DNA from: a virus
Virus record (IMG/VR): IMGVR_UViG_3300006802_000263
Coordinates: 1 to 34,879 of that record
Length of the DNA: 34,879 nt
Direction: 5' to 3' (one strand)
The translations under genes and the position numbers were made by a program. The notes beneath the pieces were generated by a model. The model was not told the origin of the DNA. It saw only the letters and a program-made list of their open reading frames with translations, and did not search any database. Positions 5,712-21,538 of this stretch are shown one piece after another (position 1 is the stretch's first letter; every line of letters starts with the position of its first letter).

Positions 5712-5867
5712 TTATCTTTTTCTGCCAAAAGTTGCTTCTATCCCCTTGGTAAATTCTTTTACCCACGTCTCCAGCGCCTCCACACGCCGCTTTAGGCTAC
5801 GAATATTCTTGAGCGTGGCATCCTGCATGTTCTTACGTTTCTTCGTTGTCTTAGTTTTCTTTGGCAT
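5712..5867 (-). CDS. 51-aa very basic coiled-coil peptide
   Basis: The ATG at 5867 follows GGAGGAG and opens a 51-codon frame. The first 13 residues are mostly Lys, Thr and Arg (MPKKTKTTKKRKN), then a helix with heptad-like spacing (LKNIRSLKRRVEALETWVKEF). This suggests a DNA- or RNA-binding peptide that oligomerises. It ends 45 bp before the integrase start and its own start overlaps the stop of the Cys-rich frame upstream (TGATG), so it may be an integrase-linked accessory such as a small excision or architectural factor, which is inference. Confidence 0.6.
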   Translation of the reverse strand: MPKKTKTTKKRKNMQDATLKNIRSLKRRVEALETWVKEFTKGIEATFGRKR

Positions 5868-6037
5868 CACTCCTCCAGCATCACCGCTGCATACCGTTTA
5901 ATTTTTGCATTCCAATCTACTCCCATGCAGCAATCGCAAATTCCGCCCTGCTCGTTCAGCTCCCCGCACAAATAAACACCTCCCCCCTCTAATTCAACTA
6001 GAAATCCAACACGGCTCCCCTCTACAGTCGCCGCAAC
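5867..6037 (-). pseudogene. small CDCC-containing protein whose reading frame has lost or shifted its start
   Basis: A protein-like frame reads AATVEGSRVGFLVELEGG, then YLCGELNEQGGICDCCMGVD, then WNAKIKRYAAVMLEE, ending at 5867 with TGATG coupling to the next gene. The only good start (GGAGGGGTGATG, ATG at 6039) is out of phase by one base and its own frame stops after five codons. Either a one-base deletion near the start, a sequencing or assembly error, or a -1 shift explains this. A TTG at 5971, preceded by GGGGGGAGG, could still make the last 34 residues. The two close cysteine pairs suggest metal binding. Function unknown. Confidence 0.45.
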
Positions 6038-6061
6038 ATCACCCCTCCTTGTCTTTGGTTG
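6037..6061. repeat. 25-bp direct repeat, copy 1 (ribosome-binding site plus start codon)
   Basis: The 25 bases at 6037-6061 are identical to 6232-6256. On the minus strand each copy ends in AAGGAGGGGTGATG, that is a strong Shine-Dalgarno sequence and an ATG. This copy leads into the frame-disrupted 5867-6037 gene. Confidence 0.85.
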
Positions 6062-6084
6062 TGGTTGCTTTGAGCTTCACAACC

Positions 6085-6234
6085 TTATACGACAATTTGA
6101 AAGCCCATCGCTTCCACGATACGCTCACGTTCGTCTAAAATGCCCTGGTCATACGCCTTACAAGTGTCGCAGCAGTCTGTGGCTCTCTCTAAATCTCGAC
6201 ATCGACAAACGCTCTCCACCCACTCGTTCCCCAT
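6085..6234 (-). CDS. 49-aa Cys-rich micro-protein
   Basis: The ATG at 6234 follows GGAGGGG and opens a 49-codon frame with five cysteines: CRCR at 10-13 and CCDTC at 21-25, followed by an acidic helix (DERERIVEAMGF). The C-x-C and CC-x2-C groups could bind one zinc ion. The gene lies almost exactly between the two copies of the 25-bp repeat (6037-6061 and 6232-6256), so it could be lost or gained as a cassette. No family is recognised. Confidence 0.55.
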   Translation of the reverse strand: MGNEWVESVCRCRDLERATDCCDTCKAYDQGILDERERIVEAMGFQIVV

Positions 6235-6256
6235 CACCCCTCCTTGTCTTTGGTTG
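6232..6256. repeat. 25-bp direct repeat, copy 2 (ribosome-binding site plus start codon)
   Basis: Exact copy of 6037-6061, 195 bp away. On the minus strand it supplies the Shine-Dalgarno sequence and the ATG of the 49-aa Cys-rich gene. Confidence 0.85.
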
Positions 6257-6278
6257 TCTTCTGTCCCATAACTCCCCG

Positions 6279-6293: not shown

Positions 6294-6370
6294 CTTAGTA
6301 CAGAGGTGAGAACTTCGGTTCTCTAGCGGGGCGTGGGGGTACTAGCTTCCACGCCCCGTTCCTTCTATTC
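6294..6370 (+). ncRNA. candidate structured small RNA: UUCG hairpin, 10-bp GC hairpin and possible pseudoknot
   Basis: On the plus strand, 6308-6323 is GAGAAC-TTCG-GTTCTC, a perfect stem with the very stable C(UUCG)G loop. It is followed by CGGGGCGTGG (6327-6336) and CCACGCCCCG (6349-6358), a perfect 10-bp stem. The second loop contains GTACTA (6339-6344), which is complementary to TAGTAC at 6296-6301, the predicted 5' end, so a pseudoknot can form. The tail is TTCCTTCTATT, a weak U-rich end. Read on the minus strand, the same hairpins follow the stop of the gene at 6365 and might end its transcript, but without a T run. Structure is seen; the RNA itself is inferred. Confidence 0.4.
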
Positions 6371-6586
6371 CCCCTCCTTTACTTCACGTTCTTTCCTATT
6401 CTCGGCATCTAGCTCATCGCTCGTCGCTGGCTCCCTTGCCGCGCACTTCGCCATGTGGTTGTTCAACTCTAGCGGCCCACCTTCGCCCCCGCCTCCGCAC
6501 TCTGCACAGACCCACCAAGAAAATGTCTTTTGCGTGGCTCCAGACTGACCAAGAAACCACCCGCCGCGCCTCTCCCCCTCACTCAT
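6365..6586 (-). CDS. C2HC zinc-finger-like small protein, 73 aa
   Basis: Cysteines 27 and 30, histidine 44 and cysteine 48 give C-x2-C-x13-H-x3-C, a plausible single zinc site, inside WWVCAECGGGGEGG and LELNNHMAKC. The C-terminus is highly charged. The start ATGAGTGAG with GGAGG upstream belongs to a 20-bp repeat shared with the next gene upstream, and it overlaps that gene's end. Function unknown; nucleic-acid binding is a fair guess. Confidence 0.65.
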   Translation of the reverse strand: MSEGERRGGWFLGQSGATQKTFSWWVCAECGGGGEGGPLELNNHMAKCAAREPATSDELDAENRKEREVKEGE

Positions 6587-6597
6587 CGCTGGCCTCC
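6578..6597. repeat. 20-bp direct repeat, copy 1 (start region of the 73-aa gene)
   Basis: CTCACTCATCGCTGGCCTCC is identical to 6825-6844. On the minus strand it carries GGAGG and the ATGAGTGAG start, and also encodes the last residues EASDE of the 84-aa gene. Confidence 0.85.
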
Positions 6598-6833
6598 TCT
6601 GCGTCGCCCACCAAAAGCTCTTCTAAGAACCAAACGCGCTGCCGCCATAAGTACGCGCCAGGCATCCCGAGTTTCTTACCAAACAAACGCACCCGAAGGC
6701 GTCGCAACGTCCAGCGCCTAAGAACTTGTTTATAGCTGATGAGCATCATGTCAGGGGCTGGCCCCTTTTGAATCTCTATTAGAGCCTTGTTAAGAGCGGT
6801 TTGAATGTTCCCCGCTGTCAATTTCTCACTCAT
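6579..6833 (-). CDS. hypothetical basic protein, 84 aa
   Basis: The N-terminal half is helical (NIQTALNKALIEIQKG) and the second half very basic and aromatic (VLRRWTLRRLRVRLFGKK, YLWRQRVWFLEELL), with an acidic tail DAEEASDE. This layout would suit a small nucleic-acid-binding or membrane-associated protein, but no family is recognised. The gene lies exactly between the two 20-bp repeats; both its own start and the start of the following gene come from these repeats. Confidence 0.65.
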   Translation of the reverse strand: MSEKLTAGNIQTALNKALIEIQKGPAPDMMLISYKQVLRRWTLRRLRVRLFGKKLGMPGAYLWRQRVWFLEELLVGDAEEASDE

Positions 6834-6844
6834 CGCTGGCCTCC
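6825..6844. repeat. 20-bp direct repeat, copy 2 (start region of the 84-aa gene)
   Basis: Exact copy of 6578-6597, 247 bp away, supplying the Shine-Dalgarno sequence and start codon of the 84-aa gene. Here the EASDE-coding bases lie behind a hairpin and seem to be a remnant. Confidence 0.85.
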
Positions 6845-6845
6845 C

Positions 6846-6877
6846 ACAAAAGCCCCCGCGTCAACCGCCCACGGGGG
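6846..6877 (-). terminator. probable intrinsic terminator or attenuator
   Basis: On the minus strand CCCCCG (6877-6872) pairs with CGGGGG (6858-6853), extended by two weaker pairs, and is followed by CTTTTGT. It lies between the stop of the 34-aa peptide and the ribosome-binding site of the 84-aa gene, so it could reduce transcription into the small-gene cassettes. The T run is short, so termination may be partial. Confidence 0.5.
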
Positions 6878-6884
6878 AAACGAA

Positions 6885-6989
6885 TTATAACAGCCCAATC
6901 CCTAGCGCGTTCTCGATAAGCCGGACAATCGATGCGAAAGCCAGACCATCGAACATGAACGCAAACGCTCTCAAAATGTGATGCGTCAT
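6885..6989 (-). CDS. 34-aa hydrophobic peptide
   Basis: The ATG at 6989 overlaps the stop of the 99-aa gene as ATGA and has GGGGGTGAG just upstream. The peptide begins MTHHILRAFAFMFDGLAF and continues SIVRLIENALGIGLL; it is mostly hydrophobic and amphipathic, with few charges, so it is probably membrane-associated. It ends 8 bp before the hairpin at 6846-6877. The support is start context and packing only. Confidence 0.5.
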   Translation of the reverse strand: MTHHILRAFAFMFDGLAFASIVRLIENALGIGLL

Positions 6990-7333: not shown

Positions 7334-7555
7334 TTACCTTGCGCCGTTGCGCCCTCCGAGCATCATCTCACCGCTGAGATGCACAACCTTATGCCCTAGC
7401 CGCTGCTCTGCCCGTATCCATCGAAGCAAGCCACGCAGCACCGATGCCCTTGCAAGCGCCCGAGCCTTAGCTCTAGCGTTCTCGGTTTCAGTCGCTTGCG
7501 TGATTGCTTCCTGCATCATTCGCTCTACCATTTGCACAACATCTTCGAGTCTCAT
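7334..7555 (-). CDS. hypothetical helical protein, 73 aa
   Basis: The protein is almost entirely α-helical by composition (VVQMVERMMQEAITQATETE, then ARAKARALARASVLRGLLRW). It overlaps the end of the Bet-like gene by ATGA, so it is translated with it. That coupling suggests a partner of the annealing protein, but it is far too short to be an exonuclease and no motif is recognised. Confidence 0.65.
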   Translation of the reverse strand: MRLEDVVQMVERMMQEAITQATETENARAKARALARASVLRGLLRWIRAEQRLGHKVVHLSGEMMLGGRNGAR

Positions 7556-8451
7556 ACGTTTGCCTCCTCTGTGTCGTCGATAAAGACAAGCTCGTCATCT
7601 TCGAAGCTCACTTCTTCCGCTGCTGCTGGCTTCGATACAAGGAACTGGCTCATGTCTACGCCCGCCACCTCGCCAAGCTCCTCGCCACCTCTCCAGCTCT
7701 TACTGTCCTTATCCCAACGAAAGCCAAGAGCCTTCAAAGCCTTCCGCACAGCGCCAGCATCGAACCAGTCCGATTGATATGGAAACTGATACGCAATGTC
7801 CTGGCTTCGGCGGTTAGTCTTTTGGTGCTCTTCTATCTCCTTCTCAGCGGGTGTCTTTGCGCTGTAAGGGCGTCGAACGATAGGCGTAGCAAGCAGCTCG
7901 TCTATTTCCGATTTCTGCTTTGTCTCCACTTCCACCGTGGCGCCGTCGCCGTACTCTGCCGGCATCTCCTCTGCGGTATAGGTGCCGTTTAGCTCCTGCG
8001 GAAATGCCTCACGAAGCGCTATCGACTTGGCAACCTTCGTAAGCATCACGCGGGGCATTTGCCGCCAAATCGGAGTATCCTTCCGGTACTCTTTCATGAG
8101 CGCCACGCCCTCAGCGGGATATTTCCGGTCTTTGCGATACACCTTGCACGTTGCCTTTGAAGGGCTTTCGTCGTCGTCCACCTCAACAGTCATCCCGTCG
8201 AACTGCGGGTGTGAATTTGCCACCGCGAGGTAGCCATTAATCCCCGTCATCAGTTGCAAGCGCCCGCCCGCTTTGATTGCCCAAATCTCTTTCTTGAACG
8301 GATTGAGCTTCGTCGCCCTACAATGCTCAGCGAATAGCCGAAACTCTGCATCCGTAAGCCCTTGCGCCACGGTAGCCTTGAGCGTTGCGACCACCGCCGC
8401 ATCGCCGAAATCGACAACCGCCAGCTCTTTTTGTTCTTTTTCTTTCACCAT
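7552..8451 (-). CDS. bet: phage recombination protein Bet (Redβ/RecT superfamily single-strand annealing protein), 299 aa
   Basis: The protein should pair complementary single strands during recombination and replication-end joining. Residues 33-90 carry the typical Bet core: DAEFRLFAEHCRATKLNPF, KKEIWAIK, GRLQLMTGINGYLAVA and HPQFDGM. The region to about residue 175 completes the annealing domain (QMPRVMLTKVAKSIALREAF). The C-terminal third is a variable tail of the kind that contacts partner proteins. The start at 8451 has GAGGAG upstream; the in-frame ATG 60 bases earlier lacks a good site. No exonuclease or single-strand-binding protein is recognised next to it, which is unusual for a Red-type operon. 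Confidence 0.88.
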   Translation of the reverse strand: MVKEKEQKELAVVDFGDAAVVATLKATVAQGLTDAEFRLFAEHCRATKLNPFKKEIWAIKAGGRLQLMTGINGYLAVANSHPQFDGMTVEVDDDESPSKATCKVYRKDRKYPAEGVALMKEYRKDTPIWRQMPRVMLTKVAKSIALREAFPQELNGTYTAEEMPAEYGDGATVEVETKQKSEIDELLATPIVRRPYSAKTPAEKEIEEHQKTNRRSQDIAYQFPYQSDWFDAGAVRKALKALGFRWDKDSKSWRGGEELGEVAGVDMSQFLVSKPAAAEEVSFEDDELVFIDDTEEANV

Positions 8452-8491
8452 GCTTTGCTCCTCTAATTCAGCCCATTCTCGGGGGTAGTTG

Positions 8492-8704
8492 CTACATCCA
8501 ATCATCTTCATCGGTCAGCCTATTGCTCTCGTATTGTGCCTCTATCTCTTCCATCTCCTTCCGCTTCAAGAGCGTGTAGAGATGCACCGACCGCAGCGCC
8601 TTGCTGAGTCCTGGCACATCCGTCCTTCTGCCCCGCTTCACCTGCTGAAGCAGAATCAATTGAAGCTGCTCCAATGCCTTCACCGTTCTCATTTCTTCCC
8701 ACAT
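8492..8704 (-). CDS. hypothetical helical protein, 70 aa
   Basis: From the ATG at 8704, with AAGGGA upstream, the frame encodes a helical, charged protein (ALEQLQLILLQQVKRG, then LRSVHLYTLLKRKEMEEIEA) with an acidic end DEDDWM. The same frame runs further upstream but there it is only the shadow of the zinc-ribbon gene. It precedes the Bet gene by 40 bp. Function unknown. Confidence 0.6.
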   Translation of the reverse strand: MWEEMRTVKALEQLQLILLQQVKRGRRTDVPGLSKALRSVHLYTLLKRKEMEEIEAQYESNRLTDEDDWM

Positions 8705-11211: not shown

Positions 11212-12315
11212 TTAGTCGATACGAAATGCCGGAAACTCCAGCACCCAACCCTTTCGGCCATCCGTCAGCACTACGTTGTTAGGTAGGTCTGCCGGATGCG
11301 TCCGAAAATCCCAGATTTGCCGCTGCGAGTTGTCATGCGTGTAGCGGCTTCTAAATCGCGCATCAGCAATGCGCTTTCCGTCTTTCTCAATCCAAAGCTT
11401 GGTTGCTTCCGCATCGCGTGGAAGTAAGCACGTCGCGAAATCCTTATCCTCTCCAAGCTTCCAAACGAAGCCACTCTTTGCGCCGTCGTAAGGGTCGAGG
11501 ATTCGCTTGCCCTTGGTGTCTATAGGGTTAAGCGGTGACGTGCTTCGGAAAGTGTGCGGGCTGGTCCATAACCGATACACCCGCTGCTCTCTCTTTCGCG
11601 GAAAGTCTTTCCGCTTCTGCGGTGGAGCCCATGAGCTCTTGGCTGTAAGTCCGTTATCTCTAAAGCCCCAGATGTAGCAGCACTTCGCCGTCTCATGGCG
11701 CTTTGCGTACGCTTTAAGGTCTGCCGCTTCCCAATCGATGCCGTCTAAATCAGCGATATCAACACCACGCGGGGCGTTTACACCATGGAACTCCCGCAGG
11801 TAGCCCCCAGGAACGAAACCGCCTGTTACTGGGTTATCTACGATAGCCGCCTGCGGGAGTATTTCGCGGATTATGCCAGCAAGGGTTTCGAACACCTCTT
11901 GCGGTATAGGTTGATGCTCAAGCCAAGGGGAGACGGCGAGCTCAAGCGTTCCCGCCGGAGCCCACCGCACCACATCCGCCACATGGAGTACCCGCTTGCG
12001 AAATGCCTGTAAGAACTTCGCATCTTTTCGCTTGATTGCTGAAACGCATTCCGCATGGTCCATCCCCCGCGTTATCTCATGCGATTGAGGCCGCCCGTTG
12101 TTCATCCCTGGGCCGTTAATGATGTGAACTCGGCAGAACTTAGACCGATTAAGCTTCATCACCTGAATGGCGTGTTTTGAATTCTGCGGGTTAAAGAAAT
12201 TATCCAGCCAGCCGAACCGAATGATGCTCGCGTTCTTAAATGAGCCGATGAACTTCTTCACATCGTAAAGCGGGTGACAGAGCCCAAGGCTGGAGATGCC
12301 GCGATTATCGCTCAC
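11212..12315 (-). CDS. TIM-barrel-like protein of unknown function beside lysozyme, 367 aa
   Basis: A GTG start at 12315 with AGGAG seven bases before it, and GTGA overlap with the lysozyme stop, sets the N-terminus (SDNRGISSLGLCHPLYDVKK). An earlier in-frame start would lie within the lysozyme gene. The pattern of strands followed by helices (SIIRFGWLDNFF, KFCRVHIINGP, VVRWAPAGTLELAVSPWLEH, QAAIVDNPVTG) resembles a TIM barrel such as glycoside hydrolases, and the C-terminus contains β-rich segments (KGWVLEFPAF). Candidate acid residues (E in LELAVSP, D in VDNP) are present but not proven. It may be a second cell-wall or surface enzyme, or a receptor-binding protein; I cannot name a family. 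Confidence 0.65.
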   Translation of the reverse strand: MSDNRGISSLGLCHPLYDVKKFIGSFKNASIIRFGWLDNFFNPQNSKHAIQVMKLNRSKFCRVHIINGPGMNNGRPQSHEITRGMDHAECVSAIKRKDAKFLQAFRKRVLHVADVVRWAPAGTLELAVSPWLEHQPIPQEVFETLAGIIREILPQAAIVDNPVTGGFVPGGYLREFHGVNAPRGVDIADLDGIDWEAADLKAYAKRHETAKCCYIWGFRDNGLTAKSSWAPPQKRKDFPRKREQRVYRLWTSPHTFRSTSPLNPIDTKGKRILDPYDGAKSGFVWKLGEDKDFATCLLPRDAEATKLWIEKDGKRIADARFRSRYTHDNSQRQIWDFRTHPADLPNNVVLTDGRKGWVLEFPAFRID

Positions 12316-16310: not shown

Positions 16311-17458
16311 TAGAATAATCCGTTATTACGCTGCGCTTGCTTTTGTTTTCGGAATTCCTCGAACGTCATCACTGGCGGGGGTGTTGGCTGGCCCGCCGCC
16401 TGCTGTGCCGCTTGCAGGCTCTTGTCATAATCTGGGTAGATGGTGCCAACGTCTTCGGCAAGGTCGCGAAGTAGTACCCGCTGCGGGTCAATTCGTGAGC
16501 CCGAAGCGAGCCCCGCATATGCCCCGTGCTTCTGGTTAAATGCGTCTCGGTATTCGCTATACCGCCGCGCCGCGATTCTCAAGATGCCCTGTCTTACGTC
16601 TTCGCTGAGTCCGGTCCCGCCGTTCAAAGCCTTATTTAGCGCACCCTTCCACTCATCGGGGATAGACTGGCTTGATGCCACCGCCGCTTGTTCGCCCTCG
16701 CGTACTGCCATGCCTGGCTCAATCGCCTGGATAGCGCCTCGAACTAGTTCAAGGTCAGAGGTTGCCGAGGGGTCTTTGATTGCCTTCACTAGGGAACGGA
16801 AGCCGATTTCCGATTTTTCGAAATCCTTCACCGGTCCCAAAGAGTAGAACTCTTTCCTAAGCGACTCCTCCCGCTCTAGAACTGATTTTCCGATGGGGCT
16901 TGCTGGATTGATAGCGCCATCGGCACCGCCGGAAAGCGTTTCGAGTGCGGAATTTTCAGCCAGAACCTCCCCGCGCTTTACTCGCTCGGCTTTTTCGACG
17001 GCATCCCGTATCGGGTCGAACGCTCGAACCATTTCGCCCTTCGGTCCCATAAAATAGCCGCGGTCTGCTTGCTTGCTCATGTAAAGCTCTTGCTGCTTCT
17101 GCGCCAGCTCAGCCTCCCTCTGCTGCTCCTCAAGCTGAAGCGCATTGATAGCCGAAGCGAGCCGCGAATTCTTGGCCGATATAGCCTCCCGAGCCGTTGG
17201 GTCTTTGACCGCTGTGCTCCAGTCCTTCATCAAAGAGAGGTTGTCACTCTCCGTCTGATTCCGAGCCACGCCACCCAAGAGCCCTGCAAGCAATCCAGCG
17301 CCCACGGTGTAGAGGGCATTCTTGCCCGCGCTATCGTATGGATTCGATAAATACGGCGCTCCCTGTGCTATCGCTTGGCCCGCGATGCCGAAAGGATTCT
17401 CTTCGGCTCTGTACATTGAGCCTGTTATCGCGTCGAGTAATGCGTTACCTGTTGCCAT
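16310..17458 (-). CDS. internal virion (ejection) protein, 382 aa
   Basis: The N-terminus has a Gly/Ala hydrophobic segment (VGAGLLAGLLGGVA), then a long charged coiled coil (about 75-130). The central part (KEFYSLGPVKDFEKSEIGFR, LELVRGAIQAIEPGMAVREG, IPDEWKGALNKAL) follows a pattern I recall from large internal virion proteins of podoviruses, in which a conserved motif of the kind LV...DPG..VREGE is found. The C-terminus is Gln/Pro-rich. A 59-bp segment (16699-16757) is repeated exactly in the gene at 19949-21538; here it looks native to the protein. AGAGGG precedes the ATG. Confidence 0.75.
   Translation of the reverse strand: MATGNALLDAITGSMYRAEENPFGIAGQAIAQGAPYLSNPYDSAGKNALYTVGAGLLAGLLGGVARNQTESDNLSLMKDWSTAVKDPTAREAISAKNSRLASAINALQLEEQQREAELAQKQQELYMSKQADRGYFMGPKGEMVRAFDPIRDAVEKAERVKRGEVLAENSALETLSGGADGAINPASPIGKSVLEREESLRKEFYSLGPVKDFEKSEIGFRSLVKAIKDPSATSDLELVRGAIQAIEPGMAVREGEQAAVASSQSIPDEWKGALNKALNGGTGLSEDVRQGILRIAARRYSEYRDAFNQKHGAYAGLASGSRIDPQRVLLRDLAEDVGTIYPDYDKSLQAAQQAAGQPTPPPVMTFEEFRKQKQAQRNNGLF
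16699..16757. repeat. 59-bp exact direct repeat, copy 1
   Basis: Identical to 21169-21227, 4470 bp away. On the minus strand it encodes DLELVRGAIQAIEPGMAVR in the 382-aa internal virion protein. Confidence 0.9.
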
Positions 17459-19949: not shown

Positions 19950-21538
19950 TATGCGAACCTCCCGCGTGGTACGAACTTGGCTGGCGATTTGAGCGCCTGA
20001 GCGATTCGCGCCCCAATCTGCTGCTGCTCCTCCGGTTGTGCCAACGCCATTTTAGGCGCTTGCATCCCCTGGGGTGAGCCTCCCGCCATGTACGCGATGC
20101 GGTTGCCCTCAGGCAGCGTTACGGGGTTAGGGTTGACCGTCCCATCTGCTCGCCCTAGCGCCGTGGCAAGCTGGCCGCCGAACTTTCTCAGGTCGTTAAA
20201 ATCGCGACTATTCATCGGCAGCCGCTCTGCCCCTGGTGTCGTTCCCATACCCGCCCCAAGAGATGGGGCAGATGTTGACGCCCCGCCGCTCAGGATGCCC
20301 TGGATTCTCTGCTTTAGGGTGTCGTTATAGTTTTCGTTGAAATCCATCTGGCCCCGCGCTTCCCGAACCGCGCCAGCGTCGAGAATCGATTGAGCCACTT
20401 CGAGCTTCTTATCAAGCCCCGCATTTGCGTAATCATTCCCGAATGCCTCAGGCAGGAATGAATACCCTACGATGTCATGCGCTCTTAGGTCGCCCTCGTT
20501 CCTACTCTGTGAGAACTTGTTATTTACGAAGCCCTCAGGTGTCATGCCCTGGAAGTCAGCGGCATAGTTCGAATTCAGAAGCTCTTCCTTAGACCGCCCG
20601 CGTGATGGCTCTGCCGTGTTGAAATCCCAATTGATGCCCTTGTCGCGTAGCTTCTGCGCTCTTGAGTATTCTTCTTTAAATCGGTCCTTATCGCCCCATT
20701 TCCCGATGCCGCCCATCAGAGCGCCAAGCAGAGCGCCACCTACCAGCACCGGAGCACCGAACGGGGAAAGCCCTAGAGATGGTGCAAGCGCTGCAATCGA
20801 TGAGCCTAGCCCCGCTCCCGATATCGCACCCGTTAGCGGGTCTTTCTTCTGGTTAGCGTTAAACAGCCCGTAGGCCGAAAGCGCCGCACCTATTCCTGGG
20901 ATAAGCTTAGCGCCTAGCCCAGTAGCCGTTCCACTAGCTCCCGCCTCGCTCGCTGCTGCGCCGATGTTCTTCACCCCCTCGGCAGCCGTCGCGCCCGCTT
21001 CGGTCGCCACGGCATTTCCGAGCGCGTCGCGGGCCACCCCATACGGTGCCAGCGCATTCGTCGCACTCGATTGCAGCGCTTGAGATGCCCCAGACTGAAC
21101 GGCGCTCGTCGCCGCTGCTGTGCCTACCTCTTTGGCCGCTTCGCTCGCTACCTGCTTTAACGCTACACCGCGTACTGCCATGCCTGGCTCAATCGCCTGG
21201 ATAGCGCCTCGAACTAGTTCAAGGTCATTTGCAGCTTCTCCACCGAACCAGCCCGTAATCTTATCAACCACGCCCCCAAGGATGGGCTTACCAGCCACGG
21301 CATCAGATACCGCCTTTACACCTAGAGCACCCGCTGCCAAGCCGCCTATCGAGGCCAAGCCGCCCTTTTGCTGCGCCTTGGCCTGTGCCTTAGCCGCTTC
21401 TCTAGCTCGCTCCTCTGCGGTCGGTAGGCCGTTAGGGAACGCCTGGCGGAACGCATCAGCGGCGGGGGTTCCCTGCCGTAGCAGCTCATAGTACCGCATG
21501 GCACCCGCTCGAACATCGCTTTGAGACATCATCGCCAT
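19949..21538 (-). CDS. Ala/Gly-rich ejection protein, 529 aa
   Basis: The first 60 residues are a helical DNA- or virion-binding part (MRYYELLRQGTPAADAFRQA). Residues 60-280 are extremely Ala/Gly-rich with several hydrophobic stretches (GLASIGGLAAGALGVKAV, VLVGGALLGALMGGIG), like ejection proteins that form a channel through the envelope. The C-terminal part is mixed. Residues about 104-122 (DLELVRGAIQAIEPGMAVR) come from the 59-bp repeat and break the Ala/Gly composition, which suggests an insertion. The protein is probably in the virion with the products of 16310 and 13629. Confidence 0.7.
   Translation of the reverse strand: MAMMSQSDVRAGAMRYYELLRQGTPAADAFRQAFPNGLPTAEERAREAAKAQAKAQQKGGLASIGGLAAGALGVKAVSDAVAGKPILGGVVDKITGWFGGEAANDLELVRGAIQAIEPGMAVRGVALKQVASEAAKEVGTAAATSAVQSGASQALQSSATNALAPYGVARDALGNAVATEAGATAAEGVKNIGAAASEAGASGTATGLGAKLIPGIGAALSAYGLFNANQKKDPLTGAISGAGLGSSIAALAPSLGLSPFGAPVLVGGALLGALMGGIGKWGDKDRFKEEYSRAQKLRDKGINWDFNTAEPSRGRSKEELLNSNYAADFQGMTPEGFVNNKFSQSRNEGDLRAHDIVGYSFLPEAFGNDYANAGLDKKLEVAQSILDAGAVREARGQMDFNENYNDTLKQRIQGILSGGASTSAPSLGAGMGTTPGAERLPMNSRDFNDLRKFGGQLATALGRADGTVNPNPVTLPEGNRIAYMAGGSPQGMQAPKMALAQPEEQQQIGARIAQALKSPAKFVPRGRFA
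21169..21227. repeat. 59-bp exact direct repeat, copy 2
   Basis: Identical to 16699-16757 and read in the same frame, giving the same peptide in the Ala/Gly-rich ejection protein. The flanks of the two copies are unrelated. Confidence 0.9.

Follow-up and report, generated by a model that had tools for sequence, protein, structure and literature searches.

Duplicated start regions around a small gene beside recT in an uncultured virus, and a probable role for them in gene turnover

A 195-bp unit in the genome of an uncultured virus, represented by a single metagenomic record, is probably a small-gene cassette in an array that is remodelled by recombination between duplicated start regions. In the window (the whole stretch of DNA analyzed, 34,879 nucleotides) the unit consists of a 49-aa gene bounded by two identical start regions, and in related phages genes are present or absent exactly between repeats of this kind. 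Little is understood of how the many tiny genes of phages come and go. This turnover would be predictable from one sequence if duplication of its start region marked a gene for removal by simple annealing, and such a process, if true, would account for accessory micro-genes that arrive with working translation signals.

Duplicated Start Regions in the Window

The repeat that bounds the unit, here J2, is an exact direct repeat of 26 bp (6037-6062 and 6232-6257, with a start-to-start distance of 195 bp). Both copies read ACAACCAAAGACAAGGAGGGGTGATG on the minus strand (5' to 3') and contain a strong Shine-Dalgarno (SD) sequence, with an ATG as the last three bases. An earlier note on this DNA, made from the sequence alone, had described identical repeats of 25 bp, each with an SD and ATG on the minus strand; the exact identity and the translation signals were borne out, both copies ending at the ATG, and the length proved to be 26 bp by measurement. 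The number of such repeats expected by chance is 0 (up to three mismatches, 100 dinucleotide shuffles). No third copy was found anywhere in the window with up to three mismatches allowed, and outside the 26 bp the flanks of the two copies are without detectable homology on either side. Copy 1 (J2a; 6232-6257, minus strand) provides the SD and ATG of the 49-aa gene (6085-6234, minus strand), an ORF within the 195-bp unit that encodes five Cys residues (MGNEWVESVCRCRDLERATDCCDTCKAYDQGILDERERIVEAMGFQIVV), as expected from the Cys-rich gene that the note had placed between the repeats. Copy 2 (J2b; 6037-6062, minus strand), with the identical SD and ATG, forms the downstream limit of the unit. The 49-aa gene has a codon score of 0.135 per codon, which is weakly coding-like, and no homologs were found in Pfam, PHROGs, viral_contigs, phages, or related records. 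Upstream of copy 1 and outside the repeat lies a G+C-rich hairpin with a perfect 10-bp stem (6325-6360), which folds well and lacks a coding-strand T-run. A search of the repeat region for RNA families gave nothing significant (one non-significant match).

Copy 2 now stands as an orphan start region, because its ATG (6039) is followed by TTG CGG CGA CTG TAG and opens only MLRRL*, an ORF of five codons in the three-frame translation (6022-6039, minus strand). The likeliest next gene after copy 2 is a TTG-start ORF of 34 codons (5867-5971, minus strand, ending in CGELNEQGGICDCCMGVDWNAKIKRYAAVMLEE*) that stands behind GGGGGGAGG and has a codon score of 0.227 per codon. The plausible coding frame after copy 2 is offset from the copy 2 ATG. 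The frame of the TTG-start ORF is open further upstream, but the repeat supplies no start codon for that frame, and the longer open frame was rejected as unproven for this reason. According to the earlier note, collapse of the two copies would leave the next gene preceded by the identical start region. Taken literally, this does not hold: the collapsed repeat site, joined in a script, again reads MLRRL*, and since copy 2 heads a five-codon ORF, collapse would not set the start region before an intact next gene. MLRRL* itself (6022-6039) combines a strong SD with CGG CGA codons; it may be translated, as a minigene or leader, or may represent just a decayed start.

The window contains a second pair of start regions, J1, an exact 20-bp repeat (GGAGGCCAGCGATGAGTGAG) at 6844-6825 and 6597-6578 of the minus strand with a spacing of 247. 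The J1b copy (6825-6844, minus strand) starts an 84-aa gene that lies between the J1 copies (6579-6833, minus strand; codon score 0.242 per codon), and the J1c copy (6578-6597, minus strand) starts a 73-aa gene (6365-6586, minus strand), the end of the 84-aa gene (EASDE*) overlapping the start of the 73-aa gene (MSE). A diverged third J1-like junction (GACACAGAGGAGGCAAACGTATGAG; 7553-7578, minus strand; local score 30) follows RecT, at its junction with the 73-aa gene at 7555. J1 and J2 are the only exact repeats in the 34.9 kb scanned that have a length of 16 nt or more and a spacing of up to 1.5 kb. Only 3-5% of positions for random minus-strand 20-26-mers contain an SD and the start of an ORF of at least 40 aa, and it is therefore unlikely to be accidental that both repeats fall on start regions. 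Directly upstream of J1b, at 6840-6880, a G+C-rich hairpin is followed by CTTTTGT, a possible terminator immediately before the 84-aa gene.

Gene-Sized Indels in Related Phages

Neither a filled nor an empty site of the 195-bp unit was found among relatives, and no other record covers the locus. The RecT relatives of the window reach an identity of at most 60%. The 26-mer and the 20-mer had no match in viral_contigs, the 49-aa and downstream small proteins had none in the searches for relatives, an integrase search for relatives covering the locus likewise gave no matches, and a RecT search of genome_contigs returned no record spanning the unit. Two records (L031 and L032) derive from this same virus, with 99.98% identity to the window, and cover only 26-35 kb. 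The mechanism, rather than the individual unit, was therefore tested in related records, using a set of RecT- and portal-related records of about 0.7 Mb.

Distinct gene-sized indels between related records were counted where the flanks on both sides matched over 140 bp or more. Four of 11 lie exactly between duplicated start regions, and in each of these (4/4) the short form is a hybrid, in which a single repeat joins the sequence left of the left copy to the sequence right of the right copy. Among 6000 random position pairs, 16 had junction repeats as strong as these, and for at least four of 11 indels with such repeats P = 1.6e-8 against random junctions. The repeat sequences of the four bracketed indels differ at three loci. 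Record L078 holds gene A, of 96 aa, and gene C, of 66 aa, both with (A)AGGAGACTAAC[CT]ATGA in front; L080, 95.6% identical to L078 overall, is without A and C and has one start region per site. A 62-aa Cys-rich gene of L019 lies between copies of AACGGAG[GA]AACAACGAAATGA, and L055, without the gene, has a single copy. L057 contains 166 bp extra between two copies of a start and N-terminal sequence that is present once in L020; in this instance (case 11) the paralogous N-terminus could be a feature of the protein family. Gene C was probably lost from L080 and L083, because the outgroup L085 carries a homolog, and for the other three indels gain and loss are both possible. The remaining indels (7/11) have no junction repeat, indicating that start-region recombination is one route among several. 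A recT homolog is found no more than about 3 kb from each of these loci, a distance biased by the way in which the relatives were found, by RecT or portal searches and mostly through recT. Gene B of L080 (6184-6461) contains an in-frame TAA relative to L078 and thus looks disabled, in the same record that lacks A and C.

In T7-like phages (n = 8), start-region-like junction repeats were found at two of 52 indels, the rest having no repeat or mostly promoter/terminator repeats. The difference between 4/11 and 2/52 (p = 0.007) is only indicative, since independent events had not been fully separated among the T7-like indels. The two T7-like cases with such repeats are L109 (phage EG1), at 6733-6973, and L115 (JeanTinguely), at 11660-11771.

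Proposed Mechanism

In the proposed mechanism the 195-bp unit would be a cassette of one gene and one start region within a variable early-gene array beside recT, and the array would change through recombination between short duplicated start regions. Annealing or crossing over between two copies would remove exactly one gene and one copy, and addition of one gene and one copy could occur by the reverse reaction or by exchange with another phage. Gain and loss of small genes through duplicated starts had been suggested in the earlier note, together with a comparison of relatives for empty sites that retain a single repeat. One-copy short forms at four sites in relatives support the suggestion; for the window's own unit, over which no relative extends, it stands as an extrapolation. 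By the sequence pattern seen in the relatives, this unit may have been made by start-region recombination, through either gain or loss.

The annealing protein that the note had described as Redβ-like and 1.3 kb away is confirmed as a RecT/Bet-like single-strand annealing protein (7552-8511, minus strand; Pfam RecT, E = 1.8e-27). As all loci are near a recT homolog, RecT is a reasonable agent, and from this proximity RecT, or another annealing activity, may be responsible for the exchange. RecA-independent replication slippage or host recombination would be equally compatible. A broader proposal is tentative and rather doubtful: that in uncultured RecT-bearing phages the start region might be the standard recombination unit of accessory early genes, such that a start region and its ORF would travel together, starts would be homogenized within genomes, and annealing would add or remove exactly one translatable gene with its translation signals intact.

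Comparison with Known Repeated Elements

Conserved boundary sequences in lambdoid phages are short homologies at gene borders that have been proposed to guide mosaic exchange. These are defined by conservation between phages, whereas the window repeats are defined by duplication around one gene within a genome. In T4-type phages, early genes are shuffled through repeated promoter/stem-loop junctions, the PeSL (promoter early stem-loop) modules (Arbiol, 2010; Comeau, 2014, both as cited in PMC4503421). As far as PeSL modules are described there, the likeness lies in a repeated junction sequence that provides short homology for shuffling of small early genes, and the difference in content: a promoter and terminator stem-loop in T4, but only the SD and start region in the window repeats, with the end of the upstream gene in J1. 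Neither a promoter-like site near the repeats on the minus strand nor a hairpin inside the repeats was found. Gene presence and absence of the PeSL type was seen at the four sites in related phages, the window locus being covered by none of them.

The start-associated sequences (SAS/ESAS) of cluster K mycobacteriophages are near-identical AGGAG sequences at the starts of several unrelated early genes per genome (PMC3203893). The SAS is a 13-bp sequence (GGGATAGGAGCCC), present in 11-19 copies per genome and ending 3-7 bp before the start; some copies carry an inverted repeat, and the function is unknown (PMC3203893). The window repeats similarly hold AGGAG and are placed at start codons. Unlike the SAS, J2 consists of two copies of 26 bp with the ATG included, and the sequence differs per phage; against the 11-19 copies of the SAS, J2 has two and J1 two exact copies and one diverged. 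Matches to the SAS consensus in the window are limited to three with two mismatches, none at these starts, and six of 100 shuffles also reach three. The window locus works like PeSL and looks like SAS, and is a member of neither, as it lacks defining features of each.

Alternative Explanations

The repeats may instead be functional start-associated elements comparable to the cluster K SAS, with a common ribosome-, RNA-, or protein-based regulator and recombination as a by-product, a reading considered unlikely. Several features are in keeping with it. In L082, (A)AGGAGACTAAC[CT]ATGA recurs at four genes in succession that belong to unrelated families. A different common start (GACTAGCAGAGGTGA, GACTAG[CT]AGAGGTGA) is particular to L084, where the homologous genes B and D share it with a gene inserted between them; this suggests homogenization within a genome and also favors the proposed recombination. 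Strongly similar start regions make up 10 of 960 pairs of neighbors and next neighbors, vs. six of the 4592 other pairs from the same genomes (p = 7e-5); this fall in similarity with gene distance favors the proposed exchange between copies, but a shared regulator would produce the same. The J2 repeat also stops exactly at the ATG, and elements of this kind are known in cluster K phages (PMC3203893). The SAS was confirmed here in cluster K1 mycobacteriophages (n = 4), with 14 forward copies per genome. However, J2 has only two copies in the window and none elsewhere, part of its 26 bp has no anti-SD role, and no clean SAS-to-SAS indel was found in the four cluster K1 phages. Those apparent SAS-flanked indels of cluster K that were inspected were discarded as short-match artefacts or gene replacements; at one of these, 2355 bp are collinear between Anaya and Adephagia.

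It is improbable that the repeats arose by coupled copying of junctions, in which short template switches would copy the stop/SD/start junction between gene boundaries and leave the intervening gene unmoved. Such copying is consistent with the inclusion in J1c of the upstream gene's sense end (EASDE*/MSE), with the end of RecT (DTEEANV*) at a similar junction, where the third, diverged J1 copy lies, and with an exact ectopic repeat of 59 nt shared by two virion genes of the window, but alone it leaves the clean presence or absence of genes in relatives unexplained. Tandem duplication of a 195-bp unit of gene and start, whose coding parts would have diverged beyond recognition while the starts remained unchanged, is highly improbable. 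The spacing of 195 bp does equal 65 codons, and small Cys-containing genes are found on both sides; yet the 26/26 identity ends sharply, no coding similarity is detectable next to it, and the flanked genes in relatives are unrelated. An assembly artefact or chance can be practically dismissed, for although the locus is known from one metagenomic record only, no such repeats are expected in shuffles, read length far exceeds 26 bp, and two other assemblies match at 99.98% elsewhere in the genome.

Additional Observations

The 59-nt direct repeat (16699-16757 and 21169-21227 of the window, 4.47 kb apart) is far beyond chance and encodes the peptide DLELVRGAIQAIEPGMAVR in two different virion genes; it is a candidate recent ectopic copy, or a candidate recombination substrate. 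Among the related records, the terminase large-subunit ORF contains an in-frame insert of 1035 nt (345 codons) in L072 (407-1453) and L055 (10161-11198) that is not found in L077 and L019. The insert includes an ORF of 277-278 aa on the opposite strand and is a candidate intein or homing element.
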